Part shown: positions 20,111-23,918 of the stretch, in pieces
Layout of the letters: each line of letters begins with the position of its first letter
Numbering within the stretch: the stretch's first letter is position 1
Source: Salinirubellus salinus
GTDB lineage: Archaea; Halobacteriota; Halobacteria; Halobacteriales; Haloarculaceae
Direction of reading: 5' to 3'
Length of the DNA stretch: 64,000 bases
Assembly: GCF_025231485.1 (NCBI RefSeq)
Contig: NZ_CP104003.1
Coordinates: 2,418,001 to 2,482,000 of the forward strand
Position numbers and translations under genes: made by a program
Notes under the pieces: generated by a model
Database searches by the model: none
Told to the model about the DNA's origin: nothing
What the model saw: only the letters and a program-made list of their open reading frames with translations

Positions 20111-22141
20111 TCAGGCACCGAGCAGCGCGTCGACGAGTTCACCGGGGTTCGTCGGGTCGGGGAGGCCGCCGATGATCTCGTCCGTCGGGGCGCCCGAGGC
20201 GGCGTCGCCGACGGCCTCGGACGCGCTGTCGATGTTGCGGGCCACGGCACCGGTGCCGTCCTCGTCGTCGACGTAGACGGGCGGGAGGTCGTCGGTCGCA
20301 CCCATGTCTCCGGTCACGACGAACTCACACTTCTCGCCGTCGCAGACGACCTCGCCCCCGGTCGGGATGGACGTCGACCCGTTCTGCATCGTGACCATCA
20401 CGCCCGAGCTACCCTCGAGCGAGCTCGTGTTGCGCGACCAGACGTTGCTCGTGTCGACGACGTACTCGCGCTCGCCGGTGTCGATGGTCACCTCGTCGCT
20501 GTAGACGACCTGCTCCTCGTCGAAGCCGTAGCCGTAGAACCGGTTGGCCGACGGCCCGTTCTCGAAGCCAGCCTCGTCCTCACCGACGGTGTAGCCCCCG
20601 TTCGGCCCGAGCGTGTCGACGTACGTCCGCCGCTCCTGGTAGGGGTCGCTCGGCGGGTTCTCCGGGTCGACCGGCGGGTTGTTCGGGTTGAACAGGACGC
20701 AGTAGTTCGGGCTCGGGAGCGAGTCCGGAGCGGCCTCCGGTAGGTCCGGGACCTGCTCGGGGGGGCTCGGGACCCCGGGCACCGCCTCGCCGACGGGTGC
20801 CTCACACGGGACGCCGCCGCTCCCACCCGTCGGGACGGCCGGGACGCCGGGATCGAGGAGTCCGACCGGGCTAGCCTGACACTCCGTGCCGTCACAGACG
20901 AGGTCCCCACCGAGACCGCTCCCGAACAGGTAGACGACCGTGCTCGCACGGCCGCCCTCGGAGAGGTTCCGGTCGGCCACCGCGGAACTCTCGAGGCCGA
21001 GGTAGTCGTCGGTCCGACCGTCCGAGACCGTGAGGTCCTCCGTCGCGACCACCTTCTCCTCGGAGAGCAGGAACGCCCAGAACAACTGCCCGTCCTGACC
21101 CTGCTCGGTCTCGAGGTCGTACTCGTCGACCCACACCACCTTCTCGCCGCTCGCCTCGGCGGCGAAGTTCCGCCGGTCGAACTCCAGCGCCCGCGGCGGG
21201 TCCGTCGGGTCGACCGACGGGTCGTCCGGGTCGTAAGCCTCACACCCGTCCGGCGGAGCCCCGAGCACGATGCCGCCGACCGCCTCGGGGGTCAGCAGGC
21301 TCGTCGGCACACCGGGGAGCGCCGGTGGCTGGAAGGGGAGGTCACTGGGACCGGGAACGGCCTCGAGCGGCACGTCGTCGCCACGGACGGGGAACGCACA
21401 GTCGACGGTACTCTCCGAACCGACCGGTGCGTCCTGTGGCCCCACCGGCACCGACTCGAAGGGGACCGGCCCGAGGACCTCCTCGGTGCCGGCCGGCAGG
21501 TCCTCGTCGTCGAACTCCCGCGAGAGGTCGTCCGTCGGCGCCTGCTCCAGCACCGGCCCCAGCGTCTCCAGCACCGGCACCGCACCGGTGTCCATCGGGT
21601 CACCCTCGTCGTCGGGGGACGGGAAGACGGGGAGGTCACCTTCACCGGGCAGGTCGCCCTCACCGGGGAGGTCATCTTCACCGGGCAGGTCGCCCTCGCC
21701 GGAGAGGTCCTCCGTCGGGAGGTCGTCTTCCGAGATCTCCGTGCCGGGTGCGTCGGCGGACGGGAGTCCATCATCGCCGCCCTCGGGGACCAGGTTCGAA
21801 TCACAGTCGTCGGTGGGGTCGGGGTCGCTCGTGCTCACGTCACAGTCGAGCGAGAGCGACCCGCCGAGGTCACCACCGTCGTTCAGGCTCGTCTCGCTGC
21901 TCGTCGAGATGTCGACGCCGTCTTCGCCGGCGCTCACCGAGACGTCGGTGTCGGTACCGTTCTCCTCGTCGCCGACGGTGATTCCGGTGCCGTCGTCACC
22001 ACCGATATCGATGCCGTCCTCGTCGATGGTGATCCCATCGTCGTCGTCCGCCGCGTGGACGGGCGCGACGAAGGTACTCGTCAGGACCACGACCGCGAGA
22101 AGCGCCGTCAGGACCTGTCTGGTGCTACGCTTTGCTCCCAT
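20111..22141 (-). CDS. Exported acidic protein with internal duplication, function unknown
   Basis: A 676-aa secreted protein. The signal peptide is about residues 1-35 (STRQVLTALLAVVVLTST then FVAPVHA). Next come an Asp/Gly-rich segment with DGITIDEDGIDIGG-like strands and a DLPGEGDLP repeat run (about 4 units). A module of about residues 219-264 (TEEVLGPVPFES to LEAVPGP) is shared with the broken gene at 23.3-23.9 kb. Two similar units follow, at about 300-420 and 480-603. Each starts with Cys, then (Y/F)xPxxPxVDPxxPP, and ends VCDGxxC, so two disulfides per protein half are possible. An alternative ATG at 22156 lies nearer to a TATA-like tttatac (about 22200-22206). I do not recognise the family. 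Confidence 0.7.
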   Translation of the reverse strand: MGAKRSTRQVLTALLAVVVLTSTFVAPVHAADDDDGITIDEDGIDIGGDDGTGITVGDEENGTDTDVSVSAGEDGVDISTSSETSLNDGGDLGGSLSLDCDVSTSDPDPTDDCDSNLVPEGGDDGLPSADAPGTEISEDDLPTEDLSGEGDLPGEDDLPGEGDLPGEGDLPVFPSPDDEGDPMDTGAVPVLETLGPVLEQAPTDDLSREFDDEDLPAGTEEVLGPVPFESVPVGPQDAPVGSESTVDCAFPVRGDDVPLEAVPGPSDLPFQPPALPGVPTSLLTPEAVGGIVLGAPPDGCEAYDPDDPSVDPTDPPRALEFDRRNFAAEASGEKVVWVDEYDLETEQGQDGQLFWAFLLSEEKVVATEDLTVSDGRTDDYLGLESSAVADRNLSEGGRASTVVYLFGSGLGGDLVCDGTECQASPVGLLDPGVPAVPTGGSGGVPCEAPVGEAVPGVPSPPEQVPDLPEAAPDSLPSPNYCVLFNPNNPPVDPENPPSDPYQERRTYVDTLGPNGGYTVGEDEAGFENGPSANRFYGYGFDEEQVVYSDEVTIDTGEREYVVDTSNVWSRNTSSLEGSSGVMVTMQNGSTSIPTGGEVVCDGEKCEFVVTGDMGATDDLPPVYVDDEDGTGAVARNIDSASEAVGDAASGAPTDEIIGGLPDPTNPGELVDALLGA
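21349..21500 (-). repeat. DNA block nearly identical to 23521-23672
   Basis: Encodes the TEEVLGPVPFES...STVDCAFPVRGDDVPL module of the intact exported protein. The run from accgggaacggcctcgagcg through to ctctccga is essentially base-for-base the same in both places. This level of synonymous-site identity indicates recent duplication or gene conversion. Confidence 0.75.
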
Positions 22142-22447
22142 CACTGGAGCGTACATCCTGCTTCGGGTGTATCAGGATTCTGTGCGCTATGTCCTGTAGT
22201 TTATACGAGCACACGAGGTCCGGGGGTCGCTCGCGTACCGGTGCCCTGTCGACTGTGGGGGGTCAGAGCCGCCACACGTCGGGCAGTCGTGGTCTCCCGC
22301 GACCGATGGGGAGTCGACTCACCTCGTGCGCGCGTGTGTGACGAGTGTGATGGAGTGTAGTGGTGAGGTGGAAGTTCGACATGCGAGGGAGGGAACGGCC
22401 AGCGAGAACCGGGGGCGAGGTCGAGCGACCGTCGCGCTACGCGGGGG

Positions 22448-23146
22448 TCAGCGTCCGAGACCGGGGAGTCCCGGCACCTCGGGTGCGGGGGCGTCCGCCG
22501 GCGGCAGCGTGAGGGTCTCCTCCTGTCCGTTTGCCGTGACGGTGACGGTCAGCCCGCCGGTGTCACCCTCCACGTCCGCACCCAGGTCCAGCGTCTCGCC
22601 GAGCGTCGCGGGGACCGTCGGCGGGGTGGGGGCCTACTCCGGTGGCAGCGTGACGCGACGCTCCTCGCCGGCAGCGGCGACGGTCACGGTGACGCCGCTC
22701 GTGTCACCCTCCACCGAGACGTCGACGGCCTGGTCGGCCTGCGTCACGGGCGGGGTCGGGGCGTCCTCGGGCGGGAGCGTGATGCTCTCCTCCCGGTCGT
22801 TCGCCGAGACGGTGACCGTGACACCGTCCTCGGAGCCCTCCACGACGACGTCCACGTCGACGGACTCCCAAGCGGCCTGCGCGGTCGGCAGCGCCGGCAG
22901 ATCACTCGGCGGCACGGTGATCGTCTCCCTCCGGTCGTTCGCGACGAGCGTCACCGTGACGCCCTCGTCGGATCCCGCCACGACGACGTCCACGTCGACG
23001 TCTTCGGACGTCGAGGGCTGGGCCGCGGCGGGTGTGATGGCGGTACTGGCGAGGACTGCCAGCGCGAGGAGCGCGAGCAGTACGGTTCGTGTGTCGAGTG
23101 TCTGCATACGACAACCGGGACGAGCCCGGACTCTCGCTTGTTTCAT
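22448..23146 (-). pseudogene. Exported four-repeat protein interrupted by an in-frame TAG
   Basis: A signal peptide (hydrophobic VLLALLALAVLASTAITPAAA) is followed by about 40-residue repeats, each of the pattern VDVxVxGxxxGVTVTVxAxxxxExITLPP. Three repeats are read before a TAG at 22634-22636. Translation in the same frame continues after it for 61 codons with a fourth clear repeat (GDTGGLTVTVTANGQEETLT then LPPADAP) and ends at TGA 22448-22450. The TAG occupies the place of Asp in LPPEDAPTPP of repeat 2. The product is therefore 157-170 aa if truncated and about 218-231 aa if restored. A strong TATA (gatataaaatacc, minus strand, 23163-23175) favours the ATG at 23146; the one at 23107 is also possible. 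Confidence 0.7.
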
Positions 23147-23277
23147 TCCCCGATTTTGACCGGTATTTTATATCGCCCGAGCGGTCCGGGCGAGGCGGGC
23201 AGTATCCGCTCGAGCGGGTGAGGCGTGGCGCTCCGTCAGCCGCAACGAGAACGGGGACGAGGTCGAGAGGCGCCCGG

Positions 23278-23918
23278 TCAGAGGTTGATGATGTCGCTGA
23301 TGGGGACGGGAATCTCGCCGATGTCGATAGTCGGTTCGTCGCTTATCGGCGGGTCCTGGATGGTGTCGGCGATCTCCTCGGGACCGAGCGGGGGCTGGAG
23401 CAGCCCCTCGGGGCTGGCCTCACACTCTAGTTCGCCCTCCTGCAGGCGGTCGGGGTCGAGGCTCTTCTCGCTGACCGGGTCGGCACACCGGTGACGTTCG
23501 GCTGGACCGGCAGCTGACCCGGACCGGGAACGGCCTCGAGCGGCACGTCGTCGCCACGGACGGGGAACGCACAGTCGACGGTACTCTCCGACCCGACCGG
23601 GAGGTCCCTGGGGTCGGCCAGGAGACTCTCGAAGGGGACCGGCCCGAGGACCTCCTCGGTGCCGACCGGCAGGGCACTGTCGTCGCCGAGGTCGATATCC
23701 TCGTCCCCGACGCTCACGCCGTCGGGCTCCAGACTCACGCCCCCGTCACCGCCGAGCGTCACGCCGCCGTCGTCCACCGAGACAGGCGAGTCGCCGTCAC
23801 CGAAATCTGTCCTTCCGTCGTCACCCAGGGTCGCACCGACCGGCCCCGCGACGAGCGAGGTCACCAGCACGAGCGTGAGACACGTCACCGCCGCCCGCGA
23901 CAACTGTGCGCCGAACAT
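23278..23918 (-). pseudogene. Exported acidic protein, frameshifted paralogue of the 676-aa protein
   Basis: Starts MFGAQLSRAAVTCLTLVLVT (signal peptide), then Asp/Gly-rich strands and the TEEVLGPVPFES...LEAVPGPGQLP module shared with the 676-aa protein. In the start frame the sequence then turns basic and stops at TAG 23427-23429. In another frame a typically acidic sequence (CADPVSEKSLDPDRLQEGEL through IPVPISDIINL) continues to TGA 23278-23280. The switch lies near 23485-23500. This is either a real frameshift or an assembly or sequencing error. It is followed downstream by the TAG-broken repeat gene on the same strand. Confidence 0.65.
23521..23672 (-). repeat. Second copy of the shared exported-protein DNA block
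   Basis: Partner of 21349-21500. The same module is encoded with nearly identical DNA, including wobble positions, and differs mainly in a short middle stretch (gggaggtccctggggtcggc against ggtgcgtcctgtggccccac). Confidence 0.75.

Follow-up and report, generated by a model that had tools for sequence, protein, structure and literature searches.

The minus strand of the window (the whole stretch of Salinirubellus salinus DNA that was analysed, 64,000 nucleotides) carries three consecutive genes for exported proteins, and the middle one encodes a repeat protein whose frame is interrupted by an amber codon (Table 1). The positions given for this gene in a preliminary description all hold, and its strand, which that description lacked, is minus. 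The repeat units are ~33 residues long, e.g., VDVDVVVEGSEDGVTVTVSANDREESITLPPED, and are joined by Pro-rich linkers. Scans of the repeat gene and its neighbours against Pfam and NCBIfam gave nothing above cut-off, and a profile search found no match among solved structures. An AlphaFold model of low confidence (mean pLDDT, 48) has three strands per repeat and places residue 171, the position of the stop, between a strand of repeat 3 (161-167) and a strand of repeat 4 (189-195).

Table 1. Features of the repeat-protein gene and of the exported-protein genes on either side of it (window positions)
Feature	Position	Strand	Details
Exported-protein gene, probable pseudogene	23278..23918	-	Frame change near 23487-23489; central segment of relatives missing
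Truncated secreted protein ORF, 170 aa	22634..23146	-	ATG 23146-23144, TAG end; signal peptide and three beta-repeats
In-frame amber TAG, linker after repeat 3 (LPPE-TAG-APTPP)	22634..22636	-	
Former coding sequence 3' of TAG	22448..22633	-	61 sense codons: fourth repeat and Pro/Leu-rich C-terminus; TGA 22450-22448
Intact acidic exported protein, 681 aa, no Pfam match	20111..22156	-	

Translation of the repeat gene could alternatively start at codon 14, the second Met, which begins at 23107, a choice considered because both relatives described below align from that residue. A TATA-like element, TATAAAAT, is located ~27 bases 5' of the first ATG (window 23146-23185, minus strand). This spacing is as expected for a leaderless haloarchaeal transcript and makes the first Met a possible start despite the alignment of the relatives.

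Several lines of evidence indicate that the sequence beyond the amber belongs to the gene. With the truncated product as the sole query, a search of the genome recovered repeat 4 (E = 1.3e-8), part of which is the stretch ETLDLGADVEGDTGGLTVTV. Its local alignment score was 127, whereas 2,000 shuffles averaged 34 and peaked at 60, and flanking noncoding stretches scored 19 to 33 in the same comparison. Judged from these alignments, repeat 4 is a genuine repeat and not a chance resemblance. G+C fractions at the three codon positions are 0.76/0.50/0.92 in repeats 1 to 3 and 0.82/0.61/0.87 between the TAG and the TGA, a coding-like composition on both sides of the amber; beyond the TGA, where the values are 0.62/0.72/0.69, it is no longer coding-like. 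The argument rests on the repeat and on this composition, as an open frame of 61 codons is by itself weak evidence in DNA so rich in G+C. The preliminary description, which had the frame open for 61 codons past the TAG, with a clear fourth repeat and a TGA at its end, is borne out by the genome search and the shuffles. Homologous in-frame coding sequence persists past the stop, as in a gene disrupted by a nonsense change. In comparisons of repeat 4 with most other repeats, identity at third codon positions is below that at first and second positions (0.79/0.70/0.64 against repeat 2), and this divergence suggests that the repeat beyond the TAG was under selection as protein for most of its history. 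Furthermore, the amino acid identity of repeat 4 to every other unit is only 33 to 58%, so it is not a fresh copy of any of them.

The linker after repeat 2 reads LPPE-D-APTPP, and the same site after repeat 3 is the TAG; the Asp of repeat 2 to which the amber had been matched is indeed encoded there, by GAC. Two substitutions separate GAC from TAG, whereas a single change suffices from GAG, AAG, or CAG, and the lost codon was therefore not necessarily one for Asp.

Relatives of the gene are few. The genus is represented by one genome, and clear relatives were found in 2 other genomes among 146 of the family, those of Halorarius halobius ZY10 (G066) and of G048; congeners of the two (G067 for the former, G047 and G049 for the latter) lack the gene. 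A search of 392 genomes at the level of the order gave, beyond the source genome, only weak matches of doubtful meaning, and the viral contigs searched contained no relatives. One scan of genome contigs came back empty, and another returned Halorarius halobius only. Both relatives are ~50% identical to the window gene and consist of a signal peptide, three repeats, and a Pro/Leu-rich tail, each in a distinct neighbourhood, and neither of them contains an internal stop. They carry a sense codon at the linker position of the amber (GAC in repeat 3 of Halorarius), yet they have three repeats only. The preliminary description had looked upon orthologues that all stop at this place without a fourth repeat as evidence against a broken gene. 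Both relatives do have three repeats, but they end some residues beyond, at their own Pro/Leu-rich C-termini, and not at this codon. Repeats 2 and 3 share 90% of their DNA sequence in Halorarius and 84% in G048, the last two units being far more alike than the others, so the arrays change by duplication of units. As judged from the sequences compared, repeat number varies between lineages. The fourth repeat would be a lineage-specific addition if three is the ancestral number.

The neighbouring gene upstream, read from 23918 to 23278, is a paralogue of the gene read from 22156 to 20111 (77% identity over 70 residues). The part past its frame change retains a coding-like composition (0.70/0.41/0.86), and the last stretch of it is similar to the C-termini at which relatives naturally end, but the central segment that would lie between the two parts is gone. 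Decay is also found in the surroundings of the amber, the adjacent exported-protein gene being both frameshifted and shortened, and the separate lesions of two adjacent genes suggest that selection on the cluster is relaxed. Several further genera of the family carry genes related to that of the 681-aa protein, some of which are in tandem. In-frame stops noted in such relatives proved to be natural gene ends in the three loci checked. Elsewhere in the window, beside the trp genes, the G+C content falls to 0.53 to 0.62 between ~12300 and ~16000, compared with ~0.70 around it; this stretch, which holds hydrolase-like, regulator-like, and cupin-like ORFs (names assigned from sequence only), is possibly an acquired island.

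The proximity of a second lesion, <1 kb away, is what a locally poor stretch of sequence might give, and together with the fully coding appearance of the sequence after the TAG it could point to a sequencing or assembly error, in which case the real codon would be a sense codon and the gene an intact one of four repeats. Such an error is unlikely, as the TAG differs at two positions from the expected GAC, the defect of the neighbour includes the loss of a whole central segment and is not a lone indel, and long frames elsewhere in the window (the trp genes, histidyl-tRNA synthetase, and a CBS protein) are intact. In addition, the assembly consists of two contigs and has a completeness of 100%.

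Means of reading the amber as a sense codon were also sought. tRNA genes were gathered from Rfam matches (n = 44; ARAGORN with its intron option was required for four), and none of these 44 has the anticodon CUA. The best match to the PylS profile in this genome scored 20.9 bits, below the cut-off of 178 that was passed in 1 of 14 control genomes, presumably that of Methanosarcina acetivorans. Folding of a 130-base stretch that surrounds and follows the stop was no stronger than that of shuffled sequences (z = -0.20). Termination at TAG is common in the window, where 15 of 47 coding-like ORFs end with this codon. Programmed or basal readthrough, yielding a minor form with four repeats, could draw on the open, coding-like frame downstream and its proper TGA end, and on the position of the stop at a repeat boundary, where the low-confidence model suggests that products of both lengths could fold. 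Nevertheless, it is very unlikely given the lack of a CUA tRNA among those found, of PylS above the cut-off, and of RNA structure downstream, the ordinary use of TAG as a terminator, and the absence of an internal TAG from both relatives. A 2021 review also holds that selenocysteine and pyrrolysine are the only cases in which stop recoding has been demonstrated in archaea (PMC8211752). That a near-cognate tRNA reads the amber at a low level, giving a minor secreted form with four repeats, is extremely improbable; if true, it would represent a case of stop readthrough, in a haloarchaeon, that is independent of pyrrolysine.

The most probable reading by far is that one of the Pro-rich linkers acquired an ordinary nonsense mutation and that the array, once of four repeats, was thereby cut to three. 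The preliminary description had preferred a recent nonsense change to readthrough, and the tRNA and PylS searches, the frequency of TAG as a terminator, the lack of RNA structure, and the damage to the next gene all agree with that preference. The rarity of the gene, found in 2 other genomes of 146 and missing from sister species, and the changeable arrays of the relatives were also counted in favour of a nonsense change. Against it stands the single genome of the genus, which leaves no close orthologue to supply the ancestral sense codon, the available relatives being ~50% identical and having three repeats. The ancestral gene would have encoded a small secreted protein with a signal peptide and four beta-repeats, each of ~33 residues and three strands, with Pro-rich linkers between them. 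The TAG that now terminates translation would then have arisen by a point change in the linker between repeats 3 and 4, leaving a product of 170 residues and three repeats and removing the last repeat together with the normal C-terminal tail. The change was probably recent, and the exported-gene cluster seems to be dispensable, drifting under weak selection. The cut falls between repeat units, and the three-repeat product may therefore still be folded and exported, as far as the low-confidence model of the repeats can indicate.

Within the nonsense reading, and compatible with it, the three-repeat product might be fully functional and the fourth repeat a discarded extra, a view that is plausible but falls somewhat short of probable. 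Both relatives have exactly three repeats and the number varies between lineages, so a three-repeat product is perhaps viable. However, the low identity of repeat 4 to all other units (33 to 58%) does not fit a recent copy, and the Pro/Leu-rich tail that follows it, which the truncated form lacks, resembles the C-termini of the relatives. Repeat 4 thus looks like the original end of the gene.

As a case of ordinary gene decay or array shortening, the finding is of small importance beyond annotation, where it warns against taking the TAG at 22634-22636 for a recoded amber in Halobacteria. It also documents a rare and patchily distributed family of haloarchaeal secreted beta-repeat proteins without a Pfam or NCBIfam match above cut-off and records both a repeat number that differs among lineages and, in a single genome, the decay of a cluster of exported-protein genes.

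The locus resembles the pyrrolysine amber decoding of methanogens only in having an in-frame TAG followed by coding-like sequence, and it differs in that no PylS above the cut-off and no CUA tRNA are found here and in that the gene is not one for a methylamine methyltransferase. The closest counterparts are two uncharacterised proteins from genomes of the same family. That of G048 (L086 6786..7415) has longer Pro-rich linkers and a longer tail, no internal stop, and other neighbours, and is alike in having a signal peptide and three repeats of this type. The protein of Halorarius halobius ZY10 (NZ_CP101161.1; L015 4887..5399) differs in its three repeats without an internal stop, its natural C-terminus, LPPEDSPSPPSLPL, and its other neighbours; it is like the window protein in its signal peptide, its Pro-rich linkers, an identity of ~52%, and repeats of the form VDVxVEGxxDGxxVTVxANGQExxxxLPP.
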